From a virus, in the IMG/VR virus record IMGVR_UViG_3300018815_000013, positions 1-21,843 of that record: DNA of 21,843 nt; one strand, written 5' to 3'. Shown in pieces: positions 6,012 to 21,843 of the stretch. The notes beneath the pieces are model-generated. The model was not told the DNA's origin and ran no database searches. It worked only from the letters and a program-made list of their open reading frames with translations. The position numbers and the translations under genes were made by a program. Position 1 is the first letter of the stretch, and each line of letters starts with the position of its first letter.

Positions 6012-6482
6012 ATGAGCATTAGAATAGAAAGCATCAAAGATGTTACCAACATCAATGATCTTAAGTATCAAGATTTAAAGTTAGATTTTGAGTATAGTTA
6101 CACACAAAATTCACAATTTCTGAAGACCAACGAAATTATTGATCTCAAAGTGGATTATGATCTGAATGCCGTTAAGAACAGCTTAAGAAACATGTTTATA
6201 ACCAATCGTGGTGAAAAACTACTAAATCCATACTTTGGCATTGGGCTAGCTAGCTTTGTATTTGATCAAGCAACACAATCAACTGCCAAGATCATTGGCG
6301 ATGCCATCCTAACCAACATCAATACCTTTGAACCCAGAGTGCAGGTGAACAGGGTAAATGTCATTGCCAATGAAGATGACAACAGCTACACAATCAACAT
6401 AATCATGAGTGTACCACAATTAAAAGCTGAATTAGTAAACCTAATAGGCCTATTAAATAACAGAGGATTTACTTTTGTCTAA
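6012..6482 (+). CDS. gp25: Baseplate wedge protein gp25 (GPW/gp25 family)
   Basis: Baseplate wedge protein of the GPW_gp25 family, the sheath-initiating, lysozyme-fold-like protein found in contractile tails and related injection systems. The family core is visible in 156 residues: 'LRNMFITNRGEKLLNPYFGIGL' in two parts, with the 'NRGEKLLNPYFG' loop at 65-76 and the hallmark EPRV at 107-110, where the Glu-Pro-Arg motif contacts the sheath and wedge. The final strands have the family's alternating hydrophobic pattern. The N-terminal ~40 residues are an extension of the usual gp25 core. It lies two bases upstream of the gp6 gene, matching the conserved gp25-gp6 pairing. ATG 6012 is the start that fits the late-promoter spacing. 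Confidence 0.9.
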   Translation: MSIRIESIKDVTNINDLKYQDLKLDFEYSYTQNSQFLKTNEIIDLKVDYDLNAVKNSLRNMFITNRGEKLLNPYFGIGLASFVFDQATQSTAKIIGDAILTNINTFEPRVQVNRVNVIANEDDNSYTINIIMSVPQLKAELVNLIGLLNNRGFTFV

Positions 6483-6484
6483 TT

Positions 6485-8341
6485 ATGAGTTCAACAACAA
6501 ATCAAGACGCCAATCTTACAATTAATCAGCAAGGCTATGCTGCATTTGATGCCACATCATTAAAGCAGTTAATTATTGACAGGCTCAACAACGGCACACT
6601 CTTCACAGATCAAAACTATGAGGGGAGCAATATTTCAGCAGTTATTGACATTGTTTCCTATGCTTACCATGTGCTCTTGTTTTATCTGAACAGGACAGCA
6701 TCTGAAAGCTTGTTCAGCCAGGCAACACTTTATGAAAACATAAGCAAAATTGTAAAGGAATTAAATTACAAACCCATTGGGTACCAGACTGCACTTTTAA
6801 GTTTTGTGGCCACTGCTTCAAAACTTCTCATCAAAGATACATACACCATTAAAAGATATTCTTACTTCACTGTGAATGGTGTTAGCTACAGTTTCAATAG
6901 TGACGTTACTTTTGTTAAAAACACGGACACCGACGAAGCATTAACACTCTTCAGTGACAACAATTTGCTGTATCAAGGTGCGTATGTAGAATACCCGCTG
7001 TACAATGCCATAGGCGATGATTTTGAGGCCCTCACTATAACCTATGTGGCAAATAATGCAAATCAAAAAATTGACCATTTTAACATTGATGTGTATGTGA
7101 AAGAAAAAACAACTGGCAAGTATTACAAATATGCTGAAACATCGTCACTGTTCTTGAATGATTCCAACGCGCGTGTATTTGAAAAACGTTTTGATGAAAA
7201 TGAAAGATATGAAATTAAATTTGGCAATGGCATCACAGGCAGAAAGTTACAAGCTGGGGATCAAGTAGCAATATATTTCTTACAAACAGATGGTACACAA
7301 GGTGAGATAGACATTGGCATCTTAAATTCAAACAAGTTATTTTTGTACAGTTCTTTGCGGTACAACAGCATCATAGCTGATACTGTATCTGAAAATCTGC
7401 TGCTCTTGGACGACAATCAAACCAAATACCTCACATTTTCTAACACTGACCCATCCACAAGCTATCAGGACAAAGAATCAGCCGAGCAAATCAAATCAAA
7501 TGCACCCAAGATTTACAATTCACAATACAGACTGGTTACTGCTAGTGACTATGAGGTGTTCGTAAATAGAAACTTTGCAAACATTATAAGCTCCACAAAA
7601 GCTGTTAATAACTGGGATTACTTAAACGGGCATTTCCGATACTTTTACGACTTGCAGTTGAACAAACCCAATGATGATTCACGTGTTCTATTGAACCAGA
7701 CTCGTTTTGCTGATACTTGTGATTTTAACAATGTGTACATATATGGCATTCCACGATTGGAAAGAATCACCTCACTTACACAGCGAACAAATTATCTCAA
7801 CGCTGCACAAAAAGAACTGCTGCTCAATCAATTGCAAAACTACAAGACACTCACAGCAGAAGTAATAATAACTGACCCTGTGTATGTGGCTGTTGATTTT
7901 GGAATAAGACGGGCAGGTGAAACGTTGTCTCCTGATATAACCAACGATTGCAAGCTTGTGATAACCAAGAATGTATTGTCACAGATTGATAACCAAACTA
8001 TTAAAAACAATGCATACAACATTATAAAAACATTCTTTGACTCCAGAAACAATAGCCTGGGCATATTATTTGATATAAACGACATCACATCCCAAATTTT
8101 TAATATTGCAGGTGTGGAAGATTTTTATGTTGAGAGAACAGATGAACAGGGCACGTTTACTGTGCCTGGCTTAAATTTTCTGTTCTGGAATCCTGTGTAT
8201 CCAGATGGTGATACACAAATCATTGCTCAGAATTATCAATTGCCGTACTTCAAGTATCCCTTCTTGAATAACCCACTTGAATTTCTTAACAAAATAGAGG
8301 TGCTCGCAACAACAAATGTTAATACAAAAATTGAGTATTAA
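6485..8341 (+). CDS. gp6: Baseplate wedge protein gp6 (gpJ-like)
   Basis: Baseplate wedge protein related to T4 gp6 and P2 gpJ, which forms the iris-like inner ring holding the wedges together. Its length of 618 residues is close to T4 gp6. The N-terminal helical region has the typical 'YEGSNISAVIDIVSYAYHVL' element (from about 45), in which the small wedge domain is followed by a 'NRTASESLFSQATLYEN' helix. The mid-region has 'YRLVTASDYEVFVNRNF' (about 348-364), equivalent to the conserved 'a...Vt..DY...v...f' motif of gpJ-like proteins. Near the C-terminus (about 529-550) is 'FDINDITSQIFNIAGVEDF', the last gpJ signature. It begins two bases after gp25 and ends two bases before the next gene, in a tightly coupled operon. 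No Shine-Dalgarno is visible at the ATG. Confidence 0.9.
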   Translation: MSSTTNQDANLTINQQGYAAFDATSLKQLIIDRLNNGTLFTDQNYEGSNISAVIDIVSYAYHVLLFYLNRTASESLFSQATLYENISKIVKELNYKPIGYQTALLSFVATASKLLIKDTYTIKRYSYFTVNGVSYSFNSDVTFVKNTDTDEALTLFSDNNLLYQGAYVEYPLYNAIGDDFEALTITYVANNANQKIDHFNIDVYVKEKTTGKYYKYAETSSLFLNDSNARVFEKRFDENERYEIKFGNGITGRKLQAGDQVAIYFLQTDGTQGEIDIGILNSNKLFLYSSLRYNSIIADTVSENLLLLDDNQTKYLTFSNTDPSTSYQDKESAEQIKSNAPKIYNSQYRLVTASDYEVFVNRNFANIISSTKAVNNWDYLNGHFRYFYDLQLNKPNDDSRVLLNQTRFADTCDFNNVYIYGIPRLERITSLTQRTNYLNAAQKELLLNQLQNYKTLTAEVIITDPVYVAVDFGIRRAGETLSPDITNDCKLVITKNVLSQIDNQTIKNNAYNIIKTFFDSRNNSLGILFDINDITSQIFNIAGVEDFYVERTDEQGTFTVPGLNFLFWNPVYPDGDTQIIAQNYQLPYFKYPFLNNPLEFLNKIEVLATTNVNTKIEY

Positions 8342-8343
8342 AA

Positions 8344-11300
8344 ATGGCTTTAATTAATACAAATGAACTTTACATCAAAGTTTTAGATTATACTGGCACA
8401 CCATCATTAAGCACATATGCATTGCCACAGACACCCCTAACATTTGTACCTGATTATTCTGTAGTCCAACTACTATCCACTGTTTCGTTTGTATCTTCAC
8501 TCACATCTTATACAAACACATTCTATATTCCTGATGGAAACGATTACTCCAATATTAAAATAAGATGGGATTTTGGTGACGGAACGTACCAGATAAGCCC
8601 CACCGGTACACATGCATACAATTACCCTGGCACATACAAAGTAACATTATATCTCATTAATGAGAATGGTGAGAGCTTTAAAAACAATTTCATAGTCAAT
8701 GTGACTGTTGCAAATTATTTGCAAGATGATTGGAAATTCTCTCCTTACCAAAACTTCATAATTGATATACCTGCAGGCAGACTATCTGATAAGATTACAA
8801 TCAACAGACAGAATAGTTGGCAGACTTACAATGCACTATCTGGCACTGGCTACACATTCAACCTGTATGCCAGCGGCTCTGGCACATATTATTATGATGT
8901 TAAGAATTATTATAAAGATAAATGGGCACACTTAAAAAAGTTCTTTAAATTTATTAAGAAACAAACAATCAACAATCTATTACAGGATGTTATCATAAAC
9001 AACATTGAAACATCCAATACTGAAATTTATGCAAAAAAATTAGCTGGCGGTATATCTGTTTGTAGTAAGAATGATACAGGTGCCTTTTTTGTGGGTACAA
9101 CTGGCAGTGCAGAGTTTTATTATACTGATGATAGCAATAAGAACAACACATCTACTAACGATCCTATCTTCATATATGCAAATCTAGACACAAGTAAATT
9201 TTATGATAGCTTAGGAAATGCAGAGCAAGCATATGTCAATCTTACCCCGCTAGAGTTGAGCTACTTGAACACCATGCCTGCAGTATTGCCCATCATCAAG
9301 ACCAGATACAATCCTGCAGCTGCGCTCACTATAACGTCCAATGGATTGGACGGTGAAGGTGAATCCACCATCAACAGCTTTGCACTCAACAAGACTAGCT
9401 TTGCAAATACCAAGATACCGTTCGTTCTCAAGTTAAAAGATCAAGACAACTACACAACAAAAAGTTACCCCTACCTGTCATCAACTAATATTGCTCCACT
9501 CACTTCTTACTATTTCAATATAAACCTGCTGGACGATAACAATACAATTGTACCTTCTGTATCATTCTACAAAACAGATTTTGAAAAAGAAATTTTCCAG
9601 TCAGGTGGATTCTACAGAGGATACCTGGTGTGTGATACAGAGGTTCAAAATGCCAAGCTATCTGCTTCTGTGTACATAGATGATATACCAAACTTTGAGC
9701 AAGACACTGCATTCATTTTTTACTCACAACCCTACACCCATTACATACCCAGAATATTTTCAACCACCATGTACAGCAAGGTGCTAAACACACCATTTGA
9801 ATCAACCAACACCACATACGACTTTCTGGACACAATTGACAACAGAAGCATATTCACAATCACACAAATACCTTCTTCAAATAATGTCAGCAATGATTAC
9901 TGCTTTTGGGCTGCAGATTCTGATTCTGATCGCTTGCTAAAAATGGATTACAACGGTGGTATCATTGCCACAGTAAATCTTTCTGCTGCCATGTTGAGCA
10001 ATGGTACTGCTGTTGATTTGCGCAACATATATGGCAGTGCTTCACCTTGCAGCATTGCCTTGGATAACAATAACAATGCTTTCGTGACACTATTTGATAG
10101 TGGCTCTGTTATTCGGATCAACAACATAACAAATTTAATTGACAGAATCGGCATACCACCGGTCAGTGCCATCGGAACTAACACTTTCTTAATATCATCT
10201 GATTATACAAGCAATCAAGGCTGGGTAGGTGAGTTTACTCTCTTACCGGCAAGTGTGGATGTGGATAAAGATGGCAATGTTTATGTGGTGTATACACACC
10301 CACTATCTACAACTCTTGTACGCTTTGATAACGAGTTGAATTACAAGAAAAAAATTACAGGATCGTTTAGTATCACAGATTATGCACAAAAGATTATCAT
10401 TGACAGGAACAATAACATCTGGATGGCCACAACTCGAAAAGAAAACAGTTCCACAGGCAGTGTAAACCTGTCAGGTAAGAATGATCTTATTTGGCTACTA
10501 AAAGATACTGGAACTGCTTTTATACCAACCTTAACCACATTTGCAGGGTTCAAGCAAATAAGTGACATCACAGTGGATGGTAATCAAAGCTGTTGGGTAT
10601 CACATGATGTATCAACAGTGACAAAACTTGAATACAATCAACTCACCAGGGAGTTTGCACGTCACGATTTCAACATGGGTGAAGTGTATGGTAACTCTAC
10701 AGATTACTTGCAGAGCATTGAAGGCATCTCTTGCAACTCATTGAATGAGATTGTTATTATCAATAATTTTGATTTAAAAATATACTTTCTTGATGCAACT
10801 GCTACAACTCAACCCACTTTAAGCAGCTTGAAGCAAATACAACTACAGTCAGCACCAAATAATTTCATGGAATATCCCATCTCTGCTTATTATGATAGTG
10901 TATATCAAGCAAATGGTGATTTTTTAGGATACAACTGGATTAATAAGTATTATTATTCTGCTGCTAATACCAGAATCATCACCGGCACATCCTCTACGTT
11001 CAGCATTTACCCTGCATCTGGTTACAATTTAATATTCAAAGAAAATGAAAACTTTGATGGTGAGGGCATGTATAGAAATTTTGCATTAATGGAAACACTG
11101 CAAGATAAGAATGTTTTTTTTGACGACTTTTTGGGCAAAATCGTTGGCAATCAGCAGTCCAATGCAAACAATGCATTATTAAAAAAGATCTATGAGAAGA
11201 TTTCTAATTTCTCTGACAACATTGCAGCTGTAGACACATGCAATGTTGATTCATTAATCTCCAAATGCAACATGTTTGATGTCGCGTATGAAAACTACAG

Positions 11301-11844
11301 CTACCCATACCCTGCATCACTCAAGCGTGTCATTGATATCATAAGCATCAAGCGAAATAAATTATTTGGTAGCTTAAACCAAAGTAATTATAGCTTCTCA
11401 AGCAATTCAGACGACTTTAACCTGGGCAGTATATTGAACCTGACAACTGATACTTTTTCTGCAACTGAAATCCTCGTGGCAAGAGAGAAATTCTCCAACA
11501 TCTACAAACCTGTTAATACAACCATCATCAATGGATATTCTGCTACTGACATAATTCCGCTAGCAGAGTTTACATATGATTGGGGTTGGGGGCTTGTAGC
11601 TCCGCAAGGCTTGTCAGGTTTGAATATAGGCGGTTACTATGATTTCTACCGTCTTAGTCTTACTAATCAACCAATCTACGACAATATCATTGATTTTGCT
11701 AATAAAAATTCTAACATCATATTCAATCTCAGCACTTATGATGATTTTTATGGTGAGGGTGGCATCATGGATCAAAATATCACATATGCTTTCACTAATG
11801 GCTTGAGATTAATCTCCAGTGCAATGAACGTATATTACAATTAA
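8344..11844 (+). CDS. Large baseplate-associated protein with PKD domain and NHL-like propeller
   Basis: A 1166-residue virion protein directly downstream of gp6, where T4 has gp7, but with a different architecture. Residues about 46-122 form a PKD domain: WDFGDG (75-80), then 'HAYNYPGTYKVTLYL' (90-104), the two defining strands. Residues about 125-510 are beta-rich. Residues about 510-830 hold repeated blades of the NHL/six-bladed-propeller type, each with an 'ia.D..nn.yv' pattern, for example 'IALDNNNNAFVTL', 'VDVDKDGNVYVVY' near 637, 'IIIDRNNNIWMAT' near 682 and 'ITVDGNQSCWVSH' near 738. The C-terminal ~330 residues include a helical stretch and may attach to the baseplate. PKD and propeller domains commonly mediate protein or glycan contacts, so a peripheral baseplate or adsorption role is inferred. 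No signal peptide is present. No obvious ribosome binding site. Confidence 0.82.
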   Translation: MALINTNELYIKVLDYTGTPSLSTYALPQTPLTFVPDYSVVQLLSTVSFVSSLTSYTNTFYIPDGNDYSNIKIRWDFGDGTYQISPTGTHAYNYPGTYKVTLYLINENGESFKNNFIVNVTVANYLQDDWKFSPYQNFIIDIPAGRLSDKITINRQNSWQTYNALSGTGYTFNLYASGSGTYYYDVKNYYKDKWAHLKKFFKFIKKQTINNLLQDVIINNIETSNTEIYAKKLAGGISVCSKNDTGAFFVGTTGSAEFYYTDDSNKNNTSTNDPIFIYANLDTSKFYDSLGNAEQAYVNLTPLELSYLNTMPAVLPIIKTRYNPAAALTITSNGLDGEGESTINSFALNKTSFANTKIPFVLKLKDQDNYTTKSYPYLSSTNIAPLTSYYFNINLLDDNNTIVPSVSFYKTDFEKEIFQSGGFYRGYLVCDTEVQNAKLSASVYIDDIPNFEQDTAFIFYSQPYTHYIPRIFSTTMYSKVLNTPFESTNTTYDFLDTIDNRSIFTITQIPSSNNVSNDYCFWAADSDSDRLLKMDYNGGIIATVNLSAAMLSNGTAVDLRNIYGSASPCSIALDNNNNAFVTLFDSGSVIRINNITNLIDRIGIPPVSAIGTNTFLISSDYTSNQGWVGEFTLLPASVDVDKDGNVYVVYTHPLSTTLVRFDNELNYKKKITGSFSITDYAQKIIIDRNNNIWMATTRKENSSTGSVNLSGKNDLIWLLKDTGTAFIPTLTTFAGFKQISDITVDGNQSCWVSHDVSTVTKLEYNQLTREFARHDFNMGEVYGNSTDYLQSIEGISCNSLNEIVIINNFDLKIYFLDATATTQPTLSSLKQIQLQSAPNNFMEYPISAYYDSVYQANGDFLGYNWINKYYYSAANTRIITGTSSTFSIYPASGYNLIFKENENFDGEGMYRNFALMETLQDKNVFFDDFLGKIVGNQQSNANNALLKKIYEKISNFSDNIAAVDTCNVDSLISKCNMFDVAYENYSYPYPASLKRVIDIISIKRNKLFGSLNQSNYSFSSNSDDFNLGSILNLTTDTFSATEILVAREKFSNIYKPVNTTIINGYSATDIIPLAEFTYDWGWGLVAPQGLSGLNIGGYYDFYRLSLTNQPIYDNIIDFANKNSNIIFNLSTYDDFYGEGGIMDQNITYAFTNGLRLISSAMNVYYN

Positions 11845-11856
11845 ATAATACACAAT

Positions 11857-14800
11857 ATGTCTGATATTTTAGAGAACAATATACTAGCAATAACAGTAAG
11901 TGACTCTATTGTTGCAGGCACTACAAACAATGCTGTAGATTATACTAAGCCACTTTCATTCACTGAGTGGTTGGTGCGCACAAACCCAACTGAAACAGAC
12001 AACTCATATTTAATTAGTCAGTATAAAATGTATTTGCTCGCTTGGTACAAGACCAAGAATTTAGATACAAAAAATACAGAAGATTTTGTAAGATCTTCTT
12101 TCATATCACTTTTACGAGAGATTTTATTGAATTATTCTACCTTAGAAGAGCGAAGATTTGTAAGCAATGCAGATTTTAATAATGACCTGGAGCTGTACTC
12201 AGTTTTGCCCTTCTTTGTTAAAAAGATAAAAGAGATTTGCAATTACTATGCTCTATTAAGACAAAACGTCAGTTTTAAAAAATACGAAAATAGCTTGAAA
12301 GGATCACAGGGCGGTGTCATTTCGGTATTAAAGAATGCAATTTATAAGAATCTACAAGCTACACAAATATCATCAGCAGAATCAAATCTACTCAATTTAT
12401 CTGCAATTAAGAACAATTTAACTCTGGAAATTAAGGAACTATTTGATGACTCTCAGTACTTTGACTTGAACCCTGCTCTGCCTGCTACAACATACAACCC
12501 CACGTTCACTTCACAATTTTATTCTTCAAATCTCAACGAACTGGACGCTACACTGTACACTAATTTTGATCAAAGCATCATTGATGCAATAAAGACTTAC
12601 CCCTTCTTCTTAAACGATTTTAAGACACCATACTCAATCAATGTGCAAGTGCAGGCCACTGATCTGGCATATCTCAGAGACAAAGACTTCATCAATCAAA
12701 TTAATAATCAAGATAAAACTAACTTGAACCTTAATCTTGAAAAAGAGTTGATAGAGAAATTTATCGGTACTGATTATTACTATGTTAGCACAGGCTCCAC
12801 CATAACTGACTTCACATCTGGTGTACTGTTTCAAGCACAAGACAAGGCAGCCAATTCGCAGAACAAGCGCTTTCCTTCTGTTGCATCTGTGCAAAATGAA
12901 GAGAATTTAAAAACCATACGAGAAATAGGCGGTTTCTTTCTACCAGATAGACTTGGTGTCTTAAATTTCAACAATTTCAAATACACTGTGCAAATTGACG
13001 AGGCACAATTGGAACCTAACAAGATTTATATTTTTCCTGACCCATACAAATATGGTAATATTTCAAATCTCTCTCTAACGGATTTTGAGAGCCCGTTGAT
13101 TTACGAAGAAGATGTCACCTGGATGCACTATAATAGATCAGCTCAATTTCTCTTTGGTAATGTGGTAAGTAATCCCTTGTACAAAGATTTCTACGCATAC
13201 CACAGCAGAAGTCAAACAGTTGGTTATCAGCCCTATGGCATGTCTCGAGATATTGATAGCACTGAATTTTTTGAAGGCTCAGGTAAAGATGTGTGGGCAA
13301 ATTCTGATGTGTTTCCTGTGATTGAAAACGTGCTACCTCTGCAGGATCGTCAATTTAATTTATTAGCAATAAACAAGACTCTCATCAAATACAAGAGTGA
13401 TATTTACAGCAACAATTATGGATTATTTAAAGAAATTAATCCTGTAGGTGTGGGACCAGATGGTAGCAATCAAGGAGATTTTATTTCAGCAGACGAATTA
13501 AATTTCTTTAATTTTACAGGTGGACGTGGTGGTCTCAATGGCACAGGACGCAAAGGACTCACCTACAATCAATTTGATGCAATAAGATCCACACGAAAGA
13601 AACCATGCATGATACTGGATGGTTATTTATTTTTTGACATTGATGATGGGTACAACTTCAATTTTGCAATTCCTAATGCTGCAAAAAGAGTGTCTGGTGT
13701 ATATACACGCACCATCACACAGATACCACCTGGCAGTGGATACTTCACGTCTGGACCAGGTATTCTTTCTGCATCACCCACCCCATATGCTAATTATAAT
13801 ATTGGATACCCCTACTCTGCACCACCCACTTTCAAACCACTGCCTACACCTCTGTTGCTTGTGGCATATGGTAAAGGGCACTTCATACCTGATGATTTTT
13901 GTGATGTCAACACAGTAAATTATTGCTTGCTGTTGGATTGTGTAACATTTGTGGATGCACTGAGCAATCTCCGGTTGGATGTATCATCAGATTCATCTGC
14001 ATGGTCCACATCTGTGCCTGTGTATTACAGTGAATTGCTTGAAAGCAGCTTGACAACAACTTATACTAAGCCCAACAATGTAGAGAGAGCTACGTTCTCT
14101 TACACATACCCTGCATCTGCACAAGTTATCCAAGAGCTCAACGGTTACAGGTTCAATCTGCAAGGCCAGACACCTTGTGCTGTAACCAACAGCAACACTT
14201 CACCTGCAGCAGATTATAATCTTGACAACACAAGCTTTGTGAACTTGCCTGTGCCACCTGCCTATGCAACACAAGTGCAAAACCTCACAACCAATAGCAT
14301 AGGAAGTAAAACGATCTATTCTGGACGCAACGAGATTGTGGGTGAAATGTACTATAAAAACGCCAATACTTCACGAGTGGATTTGATACAGAATGCATTA
14401 TCTGCTGTGTTTATGAAATACCCTGTTGAAGTTCGAGACAGTGTCAATAATGGCATCATAAATTTTGATTTAATCTATAATGTCATTTTCATTGAAACTG
14501 CCGATTACTATATTGTGGACAAACTAGATTATAATTATGAAGAAAATGCTGTGGAACCGTTCAACAGTGATAAGAATTTCCTATCTACTTTCATAGTAAA
14601 CAAGAGCGTAGAAAAGATAAGCAATATTTTCTATAACGAAAAATTAAATGAAGCTGTATTCACAAGGCTGGTCTTGCTGCCCACCATGAGTGCAAGCAAT
14701 CTCAAAATCATATACCCTGAAATATATAAAATAGACATTACCAATCCAGTATTAAAAAAGCTGTACCCTAACTTTGATTTGAATTATAACAACTTGTCAA

Positions 14801-15684
14801 GCTTCATTCACATTGATGCAGATACAAACATAGACCGTATTGACAAGCCAATCATGACCTATAACGAGGATTCAAAAACATACCTCATAAATTATCTGGC
14901 CAAAGACAGTAATAATGTATTTTTTAATGTTTTTGAAGAATTTCAAATTAAAAACAGCGATGTAATTTTTCTGCAAATGGTGTTCCACAAACCAGAATAT
15001 CTCATCAAAGACTACAATTTTACAATTGTTAATTCTGCAACTGCTCTGCAAAGCAATTCAATTGCAGGTGTGCTCTCTTCTTATCAAAACATCAATACAC
15101 ACACATATTGGTTCTGCATGTCCACTGAACCTGTTGTCATTGTGCCAGAATATGTAGCATGTTTATATGGTGTAGTGTTTGTACCAGTGGTGACACCGAC
15201 ACCCACCCCCACTATCACTCCCACACCTACCCCCACACCATCCCCCACACCTGCACCCACACCTACGGTGCCACCTTGGATCAACGCTTGCAGTACTTAC
15301 AGCGTAGAAGTTACTGGTGCGGGCACACTCGCTGCAGATGGCATATATGTTCTTTCTGCTGGCGATACAACGTTCTTCAGCCCAACTCCACAGTTTACTG
15401 TGTTCTATCAATCAACTAGTGATTCTCGTTTCTTCTTAATTGGTAACAACAGCTATCCTGACAATAGTACCATATTCAAAGGAGCCATACTCTCCACTCT
15501 CTCAGCTGCGAGTGAAAACTTCACACTTATGTATACAAGCACAGGCCTGATGCTGGATTATGCATGCGTCCCATATGGAACATATGATGCAATTGGTGGT
15601 ATTGACCCTGTATACCTGGAAACACAAAACTTATCAGGCGTACCCCCATATCCCACAGTTTCATTCTACAGCATGACACAATAA
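11857..15684 (+). CDS. Giant baseplate/fibre protein with Thr-Pro stalk and C-terminal distal domain
   Basis: The largest protein in the window (1275 residues). The N-terminal region contains 'LREILLNYSTLEERRFVSN' (86-104) and 'KKIKEICNYYALLRQN' (122-137), a helical pattern I associate with large wedge proteins in marine T4-like phages, in the gp7/gp8 position. Identification with gp7 is inference. The long middle is beta-rich with many Tyr/Asn and aromatic residues. At about 1111-1139 is a Thr-Pro stalk (repeated TP, with ITP, SPTP and APTP variants), followed by a separate ~130-residue C-terminal domain rich in Ser, Thr and aromatic residues, with two Cys. The architecture is base, rigid stalk and tip, which suggests a receptor-binding or decoration tip. 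The stop codon lies inside the late-promoter-like element of the next gene. Confidence 0.82.
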   Translation: MSDILENNILAITVSDSIVAGTTNNAVDYTKPLSFTEWLVRTNPTETDNSYLISQYKMYLLAWYKTKNLDTKNTEDFVRSSFISLLREILLNYSTLEERRFVSNADFNNDLELYSVLPFFVKKIKEICNYYALLRQNVSFKKYENSLKGSQGGVISVLKNAIYKNLQATQISSAESNLLNLSAIKNNLTLEIKELFDDSQYFDLNPALPATTYNPTFTSQFYSSNLNELDATLYTNFDQSIIDAIKTYPFFLNDFKTPYSINVQVQATDLAYLRDKDFINQINNQDKTNLNLNLEKELIEKFIGTDYYYVSTGSTITDFTSGVLFQAQDKAANSQNKRFPSVASVQNEENLKTIREIGGFFLPDRLGVLNFNNFKYTVQIDEAQLEPNKIYIFPDPYKYGNISNLSLTDFESPLIYEEDVTWMHYNRSAQFLFGNVVSNPLYKDFYAYHSRSQTVGYQPYGMSRDIDSTEFFEGSGKDVWANSDVFPVIENVLPLQDRQFNLLAINKTLIKYKSDIYSNNYGLFKEINPVGVGPDGSNQGDFISADELNFFNFTGGRGGLNGTGRKGLTYNQFDAIRSTRKKPCMILDGYLFFDIDDGYNFNFAIPNAAKRVSGVYTRTITQIPPGSGYFTSGPGILSASPTPYANYNIGYPYSAPPTFKPLPTPLLLVAYGKGHFIPDDFCDVNTVNYCLLLDCVTFVDALSNLRLDVSSDSSAWSTSVPVYYSELLESSLTTTYTKPNNVERATFSYTYPASAQVIQELNGYRFNLQGQTPCAVTNSNTSPAADYNLDNTSFVNLPVPPAYATQVQNLTTNSIGSKTIYSGRNEIVGEMYYKNANTSRVDLIQNALSAVFMKYPVEVRDSVNNGIINFDLIYNVIFIETADYYIVDKLDYNYEENAVEPFNSDKNFLSTFIVNKSVEKISNIFYNEKLNEAVFTRLVLLPTMSASNLKIIYPEIYKIDITNPVLKKLYPNFDLNYNNLSSFIHIDADTNIDRIDKPIMTYNEDSKTYLINYLAKDSNNVFFNVFEEFQIKNSDVIFLQMVFHKPEYLIKDYNFTIVNSATALQSNSIAGVLSSYQNINTHTYWFCMSTEPVVIVPEYVACLYGVVFVPVVTPTPTPTITPTPTPTPSPTPAPTPTVPPWINACSTYSVEVTGAGTLAADGIYVLSAGDTTFFSPTPQFTVFYQSTSDSRFFLIGNNSYPDNSTIFKGAILSTLSAASENFTLMYTSTGLMLDYACVPYGTYDAIGGIDPVYLETQNLSGVPPYPTVSFYSMTQ
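15181..15273 (+). repeat. Thr-Pro coding repeat tract 1
   Basis: Low-complexity C/A-rich DNA encoding alternating Thr-Pro near the C-terminus of the 1275-residue protein. The plus strand is almost free of G, with C3-C5 runs separated by short spacers. Related tracts occur at 15868-15965 and 16978-17350, giving three dispersed copies of similar sequence within about 2.2 kb. Confidence 0.85.
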
Positions 15685-15687
15685 ATA
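15680..15687 (+). promoter_or_regulatory. Late-promoter-like AATAAATA before 91-residue gene
   Basis: AATAAATA fits the NATAAATA late core and spans the TAA stop of the upstream gene. It ends five bases before the ATG at 15693, so a T4-like start site would coincide with the A of the start codon and give a leaderless message. No Shine-Dalgarno is visible. Confidence 0.5.
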
Positions 15688-15692
15688 ACTAA

Positions 15693-15968
15693 ATGGCCAC
15701 CTTGCCCTATGTATATGCCGAATCGTTATCAGGCTCTGTAAAATATCTTGGAGAATGTTATGTTGCAACTGGTAACAGTGGCATTATTAATGCCAAAAAA
15801 GAAGAGTTTGTAGATGCACTAACATGTGACACTTGTTTGGGCCAATCACCGTTTCCTCTGCTTTCACCCACCCCTACCATCTCTCTGACACCGGACCCCA
15901 CAAGAACCCCCACCCCCACCCCCACACCTACAGTGACACCCACGGTGACACCTACACCAGCCCCATAA
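15693..15968 (+). CDS. Small protein with CxxC and C-terminal Thr-Pro tail (possible 5' part of lectin gene)
   Basis: A 91-residue protein not recognised as a known family. Residues 1-57 form a small module with one Cys in a strand (Glu-Cys-Tyr) and a Cys-Asp-Thr-Cys pair near 46-49. Residues 58-91 are a Ser/Thr-Pro tail that stops abruptly in 'VTPTPAP'. The next gene begins one base after the stop, in the +1 frame, and starts immediately with a lectin-type domain. It may therefore be a separate short virion protein, or the N-terminal head and stalk of one larger fibre interrupted by a one-base shift at the C4 run (15961-15964). The DNA for its tail contains the strongest G-quadruplex motif of the window on the template strand. 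Confidence 0.7.
15868..15965 (+). repeat. Thr-Pro coding repeat tract 2
   Basis: C-rich DNA encoding the Ser/Thr-Pro tail of the 91-residue protein. It includes three C5 runs in a row separated by single A residues (15907-15923) preceded by C4 (15896-15899). The second half uses the same ACACCCAC/GTGACACC word pattern as tract 3, pointing to shared origin by duplication or recombination. Confidence 0.85.
15896..15923 (-). promoter_or_regulatory. Canonical G-quadruplex motif on the template strand
   Basis: The minus strand carries G5-T-G5-T-G5, a seven-base loop, then G4. That is four runs of at least four G with loops of 1, 1 and 7 bases, satisfying the usual G3-5 N1-7 rule. The plus strand could form an i-motif. 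It lies in the template strand of the 91-residue gene, so it could impede RNA polymerase or replication. It may also simply reflect codon choice for Thr-Pro. Confidence 0.55.
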
Positions 15969-15969
15969 T

Positions 15970-17424
15970 ATGAATCTCTCTGCATCCAGATCCTTCTCTC
16001 TGCTGCCTGCAGATCAATTGTCACCTGAAAATGATATTGTAGTTTCATTTGATTATGTGACCAATGTGTATGACAACTATTTGAATGTGTATGATAATGA
16101 ATCACCATCTGAAGGATTCTGTTTGTTCTTCTATGAAGGCAATGCACCATTGAGTGGTGGTGCACCAGGCGCAGGTCTGGGATATCTACCTGGTGCTGCC
16201 ATTGTGACCAACAACAACAATCTACTTCTTAGCGAAGGCAACAACACATTCACACCATATTATCTTACTGCATATGGCACTGCAAATGGCATGCCAGCTT
16301 ACAGAGGTGATGCATCTGCACTCAGTGGTGCAAAGATTGATTTCTATATTGCTGGTTACAATGGCCTGTTTCCTAGCACGTCTGGGTGGCGAATTTGGGA
16401 TGGCATAAGTAAGTATTTTTATTACAGCAATGGTACTGCATTGTATCCCATGTGGGCCGTGAATTGGATTCATGGTCCTGACATTCAAACTGGTTGGGGA
16501 TACCCCATAATCACCAGAAAAGATATGGGATACAGTTATGCAGGCAAAGCTGGTAGCTTGTTGGGAGTTGGTTTTGATTTCACAGGCAACTTCAGAGCCA
16601 CTTATAATTCGTCAGCCACAGGCACTCCAGTCATCAATAATGTCACTCTTAGAAATGGTAATTATGATTACATAACAAATTCCAACAACCTTACTTCTAC
16701 AAACTTTCTGCAACCCACCATACTTTGGAATAGCTTGGCCAACAGCATGACACCAAGCATTGGCAACCGGGTCAAAGTGCGGCTAACAGACTTGGGCAAA
16801 ACAATCAATGTGAAAATACGACCACACAATAAAGATGAATATGTGGATGTGTTAACCCACAATGCACAAGATTTAGGACCAGGCAACACCACAGACAGTG
16901 TCAAAGTGGGGTTGAACTTCTCTTCACTCAACAACACAGAGTTTGGTGTTCGTAATTTTAACATTGCAGGTGTAGCTGCTACAGCAACACCCACTGTGAC
17001 ACCTACACCTACACTCACACCCACTGTGACACCCACCAGGACACCTACTGCAACACCTGGCGCATCACCAACTGCAACACCAACTGTAACACCCACTCCC
17101 ACACGCACTGTGACGCCTACTAACACGGCCACACCCACTGTGACGCCTACTAACACGGCCACACCCACTGTGACGCCTACCATAACTGTGACACCCACCA
17201 TATCACAAACACCAGGTGCATCACCCACAGCGACACCTACTGCGACACCTACACTCACACCACCACCTTCAGTTACACCTACTGCAACACCCACTGTGAC
17301 ACCTACTGCAACACTCACACCTACACCTACTGTGACACCCACAACATCTGCACTGCCATCACCGTTCCCTGCAGGCGCACCAATCACTGATGGTATCATT
17401 GTGGGCATAGGTAATATCCTATAA
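15970..17424 (+). CDS. Lectin-like fibre protein with long Thr-Pro tail
   Basis: A 484-residue probable receptor-binding or decoration protein. Residues 1 to about 335 resemble an L-type (legume/concanavalin-A-like) lectin domain. They contain 'DIVVSFDYV' (22-30), then a Gly-rich '[13 protein letters not shown]' loop (63-75) typical of this fold, '[14 protein letters not shown]' (199-212), a '[16 protein letters not shown]' strand pair (268-283), and the closing '[11 protein letters not shown]' strand (322-332). Residues about 337-460 are a long Thr-Pro-rich stalk (TPTVTPT variants), and the last ~24 residues are hydrophobic and Gly-rich (DGIIVGIGN). No signal peptide is present, as expected for an intracellularly assembled virion protein. 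The domain begins at the first Met with no lead-in, which supports fusion to the preceding Thr-Pro gene. The lectin fold is judged by eye only. Confidence 0.78.
16978..17350 (+). repeat. Thr-Pro coding repeat tract 3 (longest)
   Basis: About 370 bases of imperfect short repeats encoding TPTVTPT-like sequence at the C-terminus of the lectin-like protein. It is nearly devoid of stop codons on both strands, so it produces a long antisense frame made of Gly-Val repeats that is not a gene. It contains an exact tandem duplication (17106-17180). Confidence 0.88.
17106..17180 (+). repeat. Perfect 30-base tandem repeat, 2.5 copies
   Basis: Copies at 17106-17135 and 17136-17165 are identical, followed by a 15-base partial copy at 17166-17180. 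The unit is in frame and encodes ten residues ([10 protein letters not shown] in one phase). Exact identity suggests a recent slippage or unequal-recombination event that lengthened the stalk by one unit. Confidence 0.9.
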
Positions 17425-17427
17425 ATA
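17420..17427 (+). promoter_or_regulatory. Perfect late-promoter core TATAAATA before propeller gene
   Basis: An exact TATAAATA spans the stop codon of the lectin-like gene (17422-17424) and ends 12 bases before the ATG at 17440. A T4-like start site would give a leader of about seven bases. No Shine-Dalgarno precedes the ATG. Confidence 0.6.
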
Positions 17428-17439
17428 ACATCATTCATC

Positions 17440-18927
17440 ATGGCCATCTACAATCCATTATACCTGAATAGCAGCACCAACACGTGGACTGCTGTTGATA
17501 ACACATTGTCTGCAGATCCTATGCACACAAGAACTGTGATGTATTCGGGTGATCGCTTGTTTTTTGGTGGTAACTTCATATACAATTTTACCAATGCCAA
17601 CAATGTTGCTAATTTTCAACTGCCAGCCAAATCATACCAAGTGGGTTGTGTGGGGTACTTTGACACTACTATCAACCGCATTCAATCCATTGGTGCAATT
17701 GGCACATTTACAGAGCAAGCGTATTGCAATAGTGCGGCATGTGAAGCTCTGAGCACGTTTGACTTGCAGAATTCAGTCAATTGCTTAACTCTGTGTGGTG
17801 CAAATCTGGTGGCAGCAGGCTATTTCAAATCCATTAACACACAAATCACGGGGTTTCAAGCGCTTACTGCAATGCCCACAAGCATTTGGTTTGAATTATC
17901 TGATACTCCACCATTCAACACTGGTATTCTTTCTGGTCAAGTTATTACTGTGCCTCAATACAATCTAATATTCACCAACTTATATACCATGGGACTGGCA
18001 ACTAGCTTCATGCCCAAACTGTCTGGTAATCCTGCCGTGAACATTGCATACTACAGCCCAACTATTGGCAGGTGGCAGGCATTTCCCAACACCACCAATG
18101 TAGATTTTAGCAGCGGTGTATTTTTAGCATGTGAAACCTACAACAATATAGTATATGCAACTGGATTTGGCACTGGTATATCTGGCGGTCTCTACTACAA
18201 CAGTGGCAATCAATGGAACCAAGTAACACCATCCATTTCAAACAATTGTGAAAACACATCCGACACACCTACAGGCTTCTTTCTGTACAACGACCAGCGT
18301 GGCAATTTAATATACTGCGGATCATTTGATAGCTATACTGGTGATACCGCCAAATCTGGCATAATGAAATATAATGGCAGTGTGTTCAGTGCCATTGGCA
18401 ATGGTTTTGATGGGTCACCCAATCCATATGCAACTTGTGCAATGGTGACGCTATCTGGTGACAACTACATTGCAGTAGGCAATTTTCCAGATAAAATTGC
18501 TTGGATAAATCGCAGCACTGGCACAACTTGGACCAAACTCTACAATGGTACTGCGGCTGCAGCGGGGTTTATTACAGCTGATACTATCGCATGCATGGAT
18601 TTGTCGGGTAATAACATGGTGTTTGGTGGCGCATTCGATTTAGATCCAGCCACCCCTAATACCAATGGTGTTGCTGCAATAACTAATAACAATGTCACAG
18701 GCATGCCGCAAGATATATATGGTATAGATGATCTCTTTGCTTTGGGACGCTTACCACGAGTGTTGTTTGCCAATGTGCCTGTGGACTATTCTGTGAACAC
18801 CACAATTGCTGCAGATTTTACTACTGCAATATTGCAAAGCCACCGTGACACAATGCTCACCACCAGCGGCATATCTGCATATAGCACAGCACCCTACCAA
18901 GGTGTTGATGGCATCATAATAACATAA
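17440..18927 (+). CDS. Beta-propeller tail fibre/decoration protein
   Basis: A 495-residue virion-type protein with a repeated blade pattern of the kelch/delta-60 kind, in which a hydrophobic strand ends in Gly-Gly or Gly-x-Phe. Examples are RLFFGGNF near 39, NLVAAGYF near 121, NIVYATGFG near 235, NLIYCGSF near 289, NYIAVGNF near 342 and NMVFGGAF near 392. Each is followed by a strand with Trp or a Tyr-Asn-Gly turn, such as '[16 protein letters not shown]'. About six blades can be counted, consistent with one closed propeller. The C-terminal ~60 residues are outside the repeats. It starts with Met-Ala after a perfect late promoter and ends the host-recognition block. A carbohydrate- or receptor-binding role is inferred from position and fold; the exact family was not recognised. 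Confidence 0.75.
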
Positions 18928-18942
18928 TAGCATTTTGCGCAG

Positions 18943-18963
18943 CATGTTGTAAAATACAACATG
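18943..18963 (+). promoter_or_regulatory. Perfect inverted repeat covering the GT60-like start codon
   Basis: CATGTTGTA, AAA, TACAACATG: a nine-base perfect stem with a three-base loop whose 3' arm ends with the ATG (18961-18963). In RNA it would sequester the start codon; in DNA it is a dyad that could bind a repressor. No Shine-Dalgarno or NATAAATA core is visible in the 33-base gap (18928-18960). Confidence 0.5.
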
Positions 18964-20208
18964 GACAGCATATACATTCAAATTGCATCGTATAGAGATC
19001 CACAATTAATTGTTACTCTTCGAGATTGCATTGCCAATGCTGCACATCCAGAGTTGTTGCATTTTGGTATTTGCTGGCAACATGATGAGAAGGATAGCTT
19101 GGAAGAATTTGCAAATGATGCACGATTCACTATTATAGATGTGCCATATCAAAAAAGTAAAGGTGTTTGTTGGGCAAGAAGCACCATTCAAAACCATTAT
19201 CGAGGTGAAAAGTATACTCTGCAGCTAGACAGTCACCATCGATTCACTAAAAATTGGGATACTACTCTCATCAAAATGATAAAACAATTGCAGAAAAAGG
19301 GTCACAAGAAACCACTACTGACTGCTTACTTACCTAGTTTTGACCCAGACAATGACCCAGCATTACGTATTAATACACCATGGAAGATGAACTTCGACCG
19401 GTTCATACCTGAAGGTGCTGTGTTCTTCATACCTGCTTCAATTGACAATTTCAAAGATTTGCATGAGCCTGTGCCTGCACGGTTCTATTCTGCACACTTC
19501 TGCTTCACTTTGGGCAAGTTTTGCAAAGAAGTTCCACATGATCCAGATTATTATTTTCATGGTGAAGAGATTAGCATTGCTGTGCGCGCTTTTACACATG
19601 GGTATGATTTGTTCCATCCACACCAGGTGGTTGTATGGCATGAGTACACCCGCAAGGGGCGGACCAAGCATTGGGATGATGATAAGGATTGGGGCAAGCG
19701 CAACGAACTGTGTCATCTACGCAACCGCAAACTGTTTGAAATGGATGGTGAAAAAAAGGACATTGACTTTGGGCCTTACGATTTTGGTAGCAAGAGAACT
19801 CTCAAGGATTATGAAAAATATGCAGGTCTCAGTTTCAAGAAACGCGCTGTGCAACAGTACACTGTGGACCATCACTTGGCACCAAACCCATACACTTTTA
19901 AACATGAAAAAGAATGGGAAGCATCATTTCTTCAGATTTTTAAGCATTGCATTGATGTGCGTTATGAGCAAGTGCCTGAAAAAGATTACGACTTCTGGTG
20001 TGTGGCTTTCAAGGATAAAGAAGGCAAGGATGTGTATCGCAAGGATGCAGACAAAGATGAGATTCAGCGTATGTTTCACGATCCAGACAAGTACTGCAAA
20101 GTTTGGCGAGAGTTTAATTGTGAAGCCATGCCTGCAAGTTGGTTAGTGTGGCCTCATAGCATAAGCAAAGGATGGGCAGAGCCCATCACTGGTACTATTG
20201 GTCAATAA
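18961..20208 (+). CDS. GT60-like polypeptide N-acetylglucosaminyltransferase (GlcNAc family, PF11397-type)
   Basis: A 415-residue glycosyltransferase of the 'GlcNAc' family, whose characterised member (Dictyostelium Gnt1, GT60) adds GlcNAc from UDP-GlcNAc to hydroxyproline of a protein. The signature is strong: 'IQIASYRDPQLIVTLRDCI' at the N-terminus (6-24), 'VPYQKSKGVCWARS' (61-74), the 'LQLDSHHRF' element (87-95) with the Asp-x-His metal/sugar-nucleotide motif, and 'FHGEEISIAVRAFTHGYDLF' (about 199-218), followed by a 'VVVWHEY' strand. The C-terminal ~125 residues, which include Trp- and Asp/Lys-rich sequence, go beyond the catalytic core and are unrecognised. There is no signal peptide or membrane anchor, so it acts in the host cytoplasm. 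The Thr-Pro-rich virion proteins just upstream are attractive substrates; the alternative is modification of host glycans. Confidence 0.85.
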   Translation: MDSIYIQIASYRDPQLIVTLRDCIANAAHPELLHFGICWQHDEKDSLEEFANDARFTIIDVPYQKSKGVCWARSTIQNHYRGEKYTLQLDSHHRFTKNWDTTLIKMIKQLQKKGHKKPLLTAYLPSFDPDNDPALRINTPWKMNFDRFIPEGAVFFIPASIDNFKDLHEPVPARFYSAHFCFTLGKFCKEVPHDPDYYFHGEEISIAVRAFTHGYDLFHPHQVVVWHEYTRKGRTKHWDDDKDWGKRNELCHLRNRKLFEMDGEKKDIDFGPYDFGSKRTLKDYEKYAGLSFKKRAVQQYTVDHHLAPNPYTFKHEKEWEASFLQIFKHCIDVRYEQVPEKDYDFWCVAFKDKEGKDVYRKDADKDEIQRMFHDPDKYCKVWREFNCEAMPASWLVWPHSISKGWAEPITGTIGQ

Positions 20209-20220
20209 TATTGTAAGGTA

Positions 20221-21231
20221 ATGAAAGCAAAGATAAGGATTCACAGACCAGAGAATATACAGTGGGGCAGATACCATACACCATGGTTTAGATATTTTAA
20301 AACATTCCTAGAACAACACTTTGATGTGGAGTGTTTAACTTATGACAGCAGAGAGGACTTGGGGTATGCGCATATAGAATTAGCTTGCAAAGACAATATT
20401 GGCTTGCAACCCACTGTGAGCGATGTTGATACCCTCATAGAGAATCTTGAAACTGGTGATTTTGTTGTGTTGAGTTTTACTGAGTACTTTAACCATAGAA
20501 ATGTTCATTACTTGAAATCAATGCATTGTAAAAAAATACTCTTGGCACATTTTAGTTATCATAATATTTACCATTGGTTAAAAGCTGATAGACTATTACA
20601 CAGAATTGATGCAGTTTCACCTTGGTTTTTTGGTTGGATGGAAGAGTTTGATATTAATTCATGCAGAGATTATAAGAATCAAGTTACAGAATTTTGCACT
20701 GACAAAATGTTCTGGAAGGGATCAGGATGGCGAGGTGGTGATGCGGCTTATAGAAAAGTTGTTAATTTATTGAAAGAAAAAGGATTGGTTGATCCAGATT
20801 CAATGAATCATGATCAATATATGAAGGAACTTGCCAGACACAAAATCGCTTTATCCTATTATTTAGATTTGTCCATGTACAGCACACCATATGATCACCC
20901 AGGTGAGTTTTGCTACAGAGACATGGAATACATGTCCATAGGCGTGCCATTTATCCGCATTGAATACAGGGATGCAGTTTATGATGGTCTGATACCCAAT
21001 TACCATTACATTGCCATACCTAGAGACAAAGCATACGTTGAGTACTCTAAAAACGGTGATGCTGGAGTTGCAAATATAATTGAACAAAAATTTAACGAAG
21101 TTAAAAATGATGATGATTTCTTAAAGTTCATATCAAAAAATCAACTTGAATGGTTTGACAAATATGCCAATTTACCCAACAGTTTAGACTTTACTTTTAA
21201 GCTGACCGGGATAAATAATTGGATCCAATAA
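20221..21231 (+). CDS. Probable glycosyltransferase (GT-B/exostosin-like)
   Basis: A 336-residue protein that looks like a GT-B-type glycosyltransferase. The N-terminal half has alternating strands and helices with no clear family motif. The C-terminal half contains 'FWKGSGWRGGDAAYRKVVNLL' split around 164-184, recalling the 'f.Gs.....R..v...L' element of exostosin/CAP10-like transferases. It then has 'LARHKIALSYYLDL' (about 203-216) and 'GEFCYRDMEYMSIGVPFIR' (about 228-246), the acidic sugar-nucleotide-binding loop in which Glu precedes 'G.P.i'. The donor sugar cannot be predicted. It has a plausible ribosome binding site (AAGG, four bases before the ATG), better than most genes here, and lies 12 bases after the GT60-like gene and one base before the methyltransferase, forming a carbohydrate-modifying cluster. 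Confidence 0.6.
   Translation: MKAKIRIHRPENIQWGRYHTPWFRYFKTFLEQHFDVECLTYDSREDLGYAHIELACKDNIGLQPTVSDVDTLIENLETGDFVVLSFTEYFNHRNVHYLKSMHCKKILLAHFSYHNIYHWLKADRLLHRIDAVSPWFFGWMEEFDINSCRDYKNQVTEFCTDKMFWKGSGWRGGDAAYRKVVNLLKEKGLVDPDSMNHDQYMKELARHKIALSYYLDLSMYSTPYDHPGEFCYRDMEYMSIGVPFIRIEYRDAVYDGLIPNYHYIAIPRDKAYVEYSKNGDAGVANIIEQKFNEVKNDDDFLKFISKNQLEWFDKYANLPNSLDFTFKLTGINNWIQ
21210..21217 (+). promoter_or_regulatory. Late-promoter-like GATAAATA upstream of FkbM gene
   Basis: GATAAATA within the end of the glycosyltransferase gene, 15 bases before the ATG at 21233. A T4-like start site would give a leader of about ten bases. The 12-base palindrome ATTGGATCCAAT (21218-21229) lies between it and the start codon. 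Being inside a coding region, it is less secure than the others. Confidence 0.4.
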
Positions 21232-21232
21232 T

Positions 21233-21843
21233 ATGAGTAACATGGAGAGGGTAGTTTTAAAAGAGAGTGATTTTACCGCAAAATGCAATGCAATCAAAGA
21301 TCTTTTCTTTTTTCAAATAGGCGCAAACGATGGCATTAGTGTAGATCCAATTCATAAATTAGTACAAGAACACAATTGGAGTGGAATATTGATTGAACCT
21401 GGCATTGATGCTTTCAATGCTCTCAAACAAAACTATAGTACACAATCTAATTTAATTTTTGAGAATTCTGCAGTTACCAATGTGGATGGTGATATAGTGT
21501 TGTGGTGTGGCACGACAACCCCTCATTTTACTCTAGATTATCAAAAAGCTGTTAACATGTTTGATGTTCAACCAAAACCTACAACTGTAAATGGTGTCAA
21601 ATCAGCAACACTACTAAAAAAACATAATGCACTGAAAGTAGATCTTCTGCAAATAGATGCAGAGGGACATGACTTTGTAATACTAAAGGACTGGCCATTT
21701 GATTCGTATCGCCCCAAAATAATTAGATTTGAATTCATAAATTTAAACGATTCATTCCATGAATGTATAGGGTTTATAAAAAATCTTAATTATCAAATAT
21801 TTTATTCTGAAGACGGTGCTGATGTAATTGCACTATGTAATAA
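21233..21843 (+). CDS. FkbM-family methyltransferase (3'-partial)
   Basis: A SAM-dependent methyltransferase of the FkbM family, whose members typically O-methylate sugars or polyketides. It runs off the window without a stop (203 codons visible). From the ATG at 21233 the protein contains the SAM-binding motif I 'FFFQIGANDGISVDP' (about 25-39), 'GILIEPG' (about 51-57) with the acidic ribose-binding Glu, and the family hallmark 'LLQIDAEGHDFVIL' (about 138-151), in which I-D-A-E-G-x-D is invariant. The segment 'GADVIALCN' near the end is where FkbM proteins commonly finish, so little is probably missing. A second in-frame ATG three codons later (21242) is an alternative start. It is adjacent to two glycosyltransferase-like genes, consistent with methylation of a transferred sugar as a cap. 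Confidence 0.88.
   Translation, partial: MSNMERVVLKESDFTAKCNAIKDLFFFQIGANDGISVDPIHKLVQEHNWSGILIEPGIDAFNALKQNYSTQSNLIFENSAVTNVDGDIVLWCGTTTPHFTLDYQKAVNMFDVQPKPTTVNGVKSATLLKKHNALKVDLLQIDAEGHDFVILKDWPFDSYRPKIIRFEFINLNDSFHECIGFIKNLNYQIFYSEDGADVIALCN

Follow-up and report, generated by a model that had tools for sequence, protein, structure and literature searches.

A putative mucin-type O-glycosylation module for Thr-Pro-rich particle proteins encoded beside phage baseplate genes

Introduction

Can a tailed phage carry the enzymes needed to attach sugars to its own repeat proteins? This question is raised by a 21,843-base viral record from IMG/VR (IMGVR_UViG_3300018815_000013), which was analysed over its whole length and is referred to here as the window. 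In it, three consecutive genes encoding Thr-Pro (TP) tracts lie beside baseplate genes and are followed, after one intervening gene, by a glycosyltransferase of family GT60, a second putative glycosyltransferase and an FkbM-type methyltransferase. An earlier reading of the letters, hereafter the original prediction, had proposed that these enzymes glycosylate the TP proteins. Considering the genes, their order, the predicted fold of the GT60 enzyme, its conservation and a statistical association with TP tracts across viral records, we propose, with a probability of about 0.65, that this phage encodes a mucin-type O-glycosylation module directed at proteins of its own particle. The components of this putative module are the following:

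11857..15684, + strand: 1275-aa protein (cluster c14), proposed acceptor, with a TP tract at 15160-15306, toward the C-terminus
15693..15968, + strand: 91-aa protein, proposed acceptor, with a C-terminal TP tract at 15840-15965
15970..17424, + strand: 484-aa protein, proposed main acceptor, with a non-repetitive N-terminal part and TP tracts at 16981-17121 and 17176-17388
18961..20208, + strand: GT60/PF11397 transferase (PHROG 24687), proposed priming enzyme, with an invariant DSH at residues 90-92
20221..21231, + strand: glycosyltransferase of predicted GT-B fold (336 aa, cluster c5), proposed extending enzyme
21233..21843, + strand: FkbM-type methyltransferase (PF05050, E 1.3e-17), proposed to O-methylate the glycan; cut by the record end

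Results

GT60 genes and Thr-Pro tracts co-occur in viral records

The survey suggested in the original prediction, which was to count PF11397 together with TP genes against a background, revealed an association in both directions. The GT60-positive set comprised 80 of 300 GT60 relatives, while the random set of 85 viral loci pooled two random-pattern sets (a first pattern, contributing 7 loci, and a shorter one). The record counts cover 61 of 80 loci in the TP-scan set, 40 of 80 in a set of relatives of the baseplate gene gp6 and 45 of 85 in the random set; the rest sit on contigs shorter than 15 kb (for gp6, mostly short ones). A DNA pattern encoding TPTPTP was present in 36 of 80 GT60-positive records versus 1 of 45 random viral records (Fisher p 9e-8), with densities of 34 and 0.8 sites per Mb, respectively. 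The reversed pattern, used as a control, appeared in 2 of 50 plus 1 of 30 GT60-positive records and in 6 of 45 random ones. When records of 30-120 kb were compared, the proportions were 21/48 for the GT60-positive and 1/35 for the random set (p 1e-5). Conversely, PF11397 was detected in 11 of 61 TP-bearing records versus 0 of 45 random records (p 0.002); the model had no match in the random set, and the same model did match in the TP and gp6 sets. At the protein level, a 40-residue-window criterion identified 57 TP genes in 36 of the 80 GT60-positive loci and none in the 85 random viral loci (0.70 Mb). The same kind of criterion recovered the tracts of the three consecutive TP genes beside the baseplate genes of the window, as had been predicted.

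The two kinds of gene were also frequently neighbours. Considering 81 loci (the 80 GT60 relatives and the window), the gene immediately upstream of GT60, on the same strand and 30-56 bases away, was a TP gene in 13, and in 4 more, the window included, the TP gene lay one gene further upstream. Random genes drawn from the same 81 loci were TP-adjacent 3.8 times on average, with a maximum of 12 in 10,000 draws. In the other loci, GT60 was located at a distance from the tail genes, with an HtrL_YibB-type gene or different flanks beside it, and many of these still held TP tracts elsewhere in the record. Four pattern-negative GT60-positive records were read nearly whole: one had TP tracts when its amino-acid sequences were tested and two had Thr/Ser/Gly repeats. 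Such repeats (TSGSSG, TGSTTG) were seen in GT60-positive records in which no TP tract was found, at L435:3-2912, L444:8144-11251 and L440:15867-17771.

The GT60 enzyme has the predicted fold of polypeptide transferases

The GT60-like gene proposed in the original prediction was confirmed, since its product matched PF11397 (E 1.9e-73; 248.4 bits for a curated cut-off of 21) and PHROG 24687 (E 9.7e-179). A predicted model of the enzyme (pLDDT 92.4) gave as best structural matches the mucin-type polypeptide GalNAc-transferases, with 29 entries at Z 19.2-22.7 and the next family at 16.5. The best match, 6nqt_F, had a Z of 22.7 and a root-mean-square deviation of 3.5 over 274 aligned residues of the model, and the first 43 Foldseek rows were likewise polypeptide GalNAc-transferases. 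Identity to these matches was 12-16% over the aligned part. Judging from the model, the window enzyme would therefore be an initiating transferase with a polypeptide-transferase fold, as mucin-type O-glycosylation requires; a shared predicted fold does not prove which acceptor GT60 uses.

Eight residues, D90-S91-H92, G201-E202-E203, H227 and R231, were invariant in 56 GT60 sequences, and DSH is also the metal motif of GT27. The enzyme was better conserved than the structural proteins: 12 phages had a GT60 69-75% identical to that of the window, with c13 and c14 proteins (the two large proteins encoded after gp6) that were 34-39% identical. A PDB sequence search with the GT60 or the GT-B gene found no credible relative, and PADLOC gave no match for the GT60, GT-B or FkbM enzyme.

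Thr is the likely acceptor within the tracts

Thr and Pro make up as many as 24 of 30 residues in the tracts of the window, so that the dense Thr/Pro-rich acceptor domains of mucin-type systems are present in its proteins. The repeated unit approximates T-P-T-x, with Thr at +2 after Thr in 81% of cases. Three relatives of the 484-aa protein are 53-76% identical over its full length, tract included, and its reading frame is therefore correct. The only PDB match of this protein, 8zvk (E 5e-11), falls inside the TP tract, and its N-terminal part had no PDB sequence match; as no Pfam match was found outside the tract either, the lectin label given to it before is unproved. Similarly, the fibre label of the TP genes was based only on their position after the gp25 and gp6 wedge genes. 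'Stalk' or 'particle protein' is the safer wording, because the study of phage XacN1, which is discussed below, saw no tail fibres (PMC5852040).

The original prediction had reasoned from a GT60 enzyme that modifies hydroxyproline. The present results shift this reasoning to Thr, which is the likely acceptor because it is better kept, because one prolyl-hydroxylase-type family is missing from the closest records and because GT60 includes Trypanosoma cruzi enzymes that place alpha-GlcNAc (N-acetylglucosamine) on Thr of mucins (PMC9472816, PMC3769586). In four aligned TP proteins, Thr was kept in 138 of 160 comparisons (86%) and Pro in 62 of 93 (67%), in what is a loose alignment of the tracts. 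The prolyl-hydroxylase-type family PF13640 was detected in 6 of 50 GT60-positive records searched, many of them fragments, and in none of the 20 closest records (G001-G020), a search that covered this one family and not other 2-oxoglutarate-dependent families or host enzymes. A hydroxyproline acceptor is thus disfavoured only.

Baseplate relatives and cultured phages

The TP genes and the enzymes belong to a run of genes on one strand, whose remaining members are:

6012-6482, + strand: gp25-like baseplate wedge protein (PHROG 261, E 3.6e-24), structural context
6485-8341, + strand: gp6-like baseplate wedge protein (PHROG 219, E 1.8e-50), structural context
8344..11844, + strand: 1166-aa PKD-domain protein (cluster c13; PF00801, E 1.4e-10), placed by synteny in the baseplate gene run
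17440..18927, + strand: 495-aa protein with no family assigned (cluster c72), between the TP genes and GT60

The open reading frames were found where the original prediction had placed them. From the 495-aa gene on, the intergenic gaps are 33, 12 and 1 bases, an operon-like spacing. The propeller label that this gene had received was not confirmed, as the product matched neither Pfam nor PHROG. Elsewhere in the window, the scanned proteins include a dUTPase and a clamp loader.

Relatives of gp6 share synteny with the window up to the gene preceding the TP genes. In a gp6-matched set of 40 records, GT60 was present in 7 of 16 TP-positive records versus 0 of 24 TP-negative ones. Because about 11 of the 24 TP-negative records end before or soon after the site (judged by eye), a stricter count was restricted to records running past the place in question, and there GT60 was found in 7 of 13 TP-positive versus 0 of 13 TP-negative records (p 0.005). 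TPTPTP was present in 9 of 33 GT60-less gp6 relatives. The occurrence of TP tracts without GT60 implies that the tracts work unsugared or are served by other enzymes; no glycosyltransferase was seen among 10 proteins neighbouring TP genes in GT60-less relatives, several of whose contigs end soon after.

Other repeats were observed in GT60-less records. Three gp6 relatives showed poly-Thr tracts at or near the TP position (L107:11734-13364, L115:20273-21821 and L153:14343-16094), and L149 (record G129) had 39 TPTPTP sites in 24 kb. A radical SAM gene at L153:16784-17397, two genes after the Thr-rich tail gene, could be another modifier.

Among the phage records searched, GT60 was restricted to XacN1, RAS14 and CM1, which contained 29, 19 and 19 TPTPTP sites, respectively. 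Since they form one lineage, they count as one event. Ten GT60-less tail-sheath relatives of this group, chosen from 37 others listed of 2,553 tail-sheath matches, had no TPTPTP site in about 3.4 Mb. Three stretches of XacN1 were read and contained 14 TP genes. One of these encodes a 3313-aa protein; it immediately follows a baseplate wedge gene and lies about 9 kb away from GT60. Proteomic analysis of XacN1 reported at least two glycoproteins (PMC5852040).

The enzymes next to GT60 vary

The second putative glycosyltransferase (20221-21231) had no Pfam match at E 0.1, and its predicted model (pLDDT 87.4) nonetheless adopted a GT-B fold. This agrees with the original prediction, as does the PF05050 match of the FkbM gene. 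The best hit of the GT-B model was BshA 3mbo_B (Z 15.7, root-mean-square deviation 4.2, 270 aligned residues). Several GT-B families, BshA, HepE and PimB' among them, tie at Z 15-16, and for this reason its sugar cannot be named. The gene had no relative among the phage isolates searched.

Across phages, the enzymes encoded with GT60 differ and include HtrL_YibB, CmcI-type and FkbM methyltransferases, GT25, GT2 and PLOD-type enzymes, GT10, GT7C, a carbamoyltransferase, a HAD protein with a nucleotidyltransferase, and three more families without a Pfam match. A constant GT60 with changing partners is the pattern expected from a fixed acceptor with variable glycans. In a hydropathy screen, 412 of 417 GT60 and cassette proteins lacked a strong membrane segment. 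Protease-like genes (labelled by eye) were usually found directly after the cassette: a subtilase-like one (c2, for example L049:11636-12568) in 36 GT60 loci and a trypsin-like one (c3, for example L048:16292-17050) in 33.

GT60 in bacterial type VI secretion loci

GT60 was also observed with the type VI secretion gene TssF in 24 of 79 bacterial loci, from Enterobacterales, Paraburkholderia and a Neisseriaceae strain (L464, L472, L474, L487, L501, L503, L506-L515, L517-L520, L522, L523, L526 and L527); these counts have no control. In a representative locus, TssG, TssA-like and fimbrial-like (PF00419) genes precede GT60, and a fimbrial-like protein adjoins it in many of the TssF-linked loci. 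A TP gene lay nearby in 7 of the 79 bacterial loci, again with no control set. It is possible that part of the type VI secretion machine is glycosylated.

Discussion

The findings presented here suggest how the module could work. A cytoplasmic GT60 with a fold like that of polypeptide GalNAc-transferases would add N-acetylhexosamine, probably alpha-GlcNAc, to Thr in the Thr-Pro tracts of proteins whose genes adjoin those of the baseplate, and these proteins would carry it into the virion. The variable, mostly soluble enzymes encoded nearby would then build different glycans on this fixed root: in the window, the GT-B transferase and the FkbM methyltransferase, and elsewhere GT10, GT25, GT7, PLOD-type, carbamoyl- and methyltransferases. 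The phage might thereby obtain stalks that are stiff and resist proteolysis, as well as a surface open to change. The core of the original prediction, that the phage glycosylates its own repeat proteins, is supported by the association, the polypeptide-transferase fold and the glycoproteins reported for XacN1, while its hydroxyproline reasoning has been replaced by Thr. We thus infer self-glycosylation, with good support, which would make the system a form of phage virion glycosylation; taken as a whole, the original prediction is partly supported.

Several observations weigh against this proposal. GT60 was missing from 9 of the 16 TP-positive gp6 records; in 3 of these 9, the sequence stops inside the TP gene or shortly behind it, and one TP-positive record scored as GT60-less (L082), whose gp6 is 100% identical to that of the window, ends before the place where GT60 lies in the window. 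The TPTPTP excess over GT60-less gp6 relatives was modest (36/80 versus 9/33, p 0.09). Likewise, 50 of 61 TP records had no GT60, and 2 of the 3 matches in an added TP subset were partial. TPTPTP was not found in 44 of 80 GT60-positive records, 6 of which were TP-positive by an amino-acid test of the fetched locus; the first 50 records gave 31 positives and the remaining 30, mostly shorter, gave 5. One GT60-positive record read nearly whole (G023) showed no clear acceptor, and no TP tract was seen in 4-6 sampled members of each of four neighbour families at the TssF loci. The p-values overstate independence because the records share ancestry. Finally, the available text of the XacN1 report does not name the glycoproteins, and the study saw no tail fibres (PMC5852040).

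Much of this could be explained if the TP tracts were plain linkers or stalks and GT60, acting on another substrate, merely travelled with them because both circulate among large aquatic tailed phages. The frequency of tracts without GT60, the many GT60-positive records without a tract and the weak excess over gp6 relatives all fit such an account. We nevertheless find it unlikely, because direct adjacency of TP and GT60 genes exceeds chance, GT60 in the baseplate family occurs only among TP-positive members, the XacN1 group differs from its GT60-less relatives and the fold is that of polypeptide transferases. The alternative named in the original prediction, that the cassette alters glycans of the host surface, perhaps as a barrier to superinfection, draws on the presence of GT2, GT10, GT25, carbamoyl- and methyltransferases, which are typical of surface sugars. 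It appears improbable to us, given that GT60 is retained from phage to phage and its partner enzymes change, that it resembles protein transferases and that it lies inside the tail gene run in the close group. Only 5 of the 417 GT60 and cassette proteins have a strong membrane segment; the comparison with Gtr serotype-conversion systems, which use a membrane flippase and a lipid-linked transferase, covers this hydropathy screen and not the GtrA and GtrB models.

GT60 might instead glycosylate a host protein during takeover or act as an effector, as could be read from the category of PHROG 24687 (moron, auxiliary metabolic gene and host takeover) and from the frequent location of bacterial GT60 in type VI secretion clusters. 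Such a role would not account for the association with Thr-rich phage proteins, and we give this option very little weight. Glycosylation of modified bases in the phage DNA, a task often performed by phage glycosyltransferases (PMC12619734), is hardly credible here. The GT-B model does match T4 AGT (Z 13.7, rank 49), but many other GT-B families reach a similar Z, of the two enzymes it is GT60 and not the GT-B one that is conserved, and no base-modifying gene was present among the window proteins scanned.

Returning to self-glycosylation, a wider proposal can be made tentatively, at somewhat less than even odds: large tailed phages would possess a complete mucin-type pathway in which a constant GT60 primes Thr in Thr-Pro and in some Thr/Ser/Gly repeats, exchangeable cassettes diversify the virion glycans and, as the type VI clusters suggest, the same GT60 also serves other contractile-tail machines. 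A recognisable acceptor (Thr-Pro), a recognisable priming enzyme and a variable cassette are found together in records from four genomic contexts, including that of cultured phages; the question thereby lends itself to direct testing, and the phages that should bear sugar coats can be predicted. If true, mucin-type protein glycosylation, commonly regarded as a eukaryotic trait, would extend to phages, and these could vary their surface charge, immune visibility or adhesion with their proteins unchanged.

To our knowledge, few cases of phage virion glycosylation have been described, with scant information on site selection, and we know of no Thr-Pro tracts or GT60 in the mycobacteriophage examples. 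In mycobacteriophages, the virion glycans are reportedly made by phage genes. These glycans are located on the C-termini of capsid and tail-tube subunits (Freeman et al. 2023, as cited in PMC12619734), and glycosylation of phage virions has been described as rarely identified (PMC5852040). A literature search of titles and abstracts returned no stated link of GT60/PF11397, mucin-like or Thr-Pro tracts with phages. XacN1 is the closest cultured parallel, with a GT60 49.6% identical to that of the window and a carbamoyltransferase and an HtrL_YibB-type gene some 9 kb from the TP protein; in the portions available, its description draws no link between glycosyltransferases and TP tracts (PMC5852040).

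Among eukaryotic systems, the GT27 mucin-type GalNAc-transferases are the best structural matches of the phage GT60, yet they do not belong to the same sequence family. Most GT27 polypeptide GalNAc-transferases carry an added lectin domain. Gnt1, the GlcNAc transferase acting on hydroxyproline of Skp1, is a GT60 enzyme and needs a prolyl hydroxylase; the phage shares the family, and PF13640 is absent in G001-G020. The T. cruzi TcOGNT and Dictyostelium Gnt2 enzymes are likewise GT60, their acceptor is Thr of Thr-rich mucin-like proteins and their glycans are afterwards extended by other enzymes (PMC9472816, PMC3769586). They are eukaryotic Golgi enzymes, whereas the phage GT60, whose activity is predicted, looks soluble and is encoded in a tail gene run.

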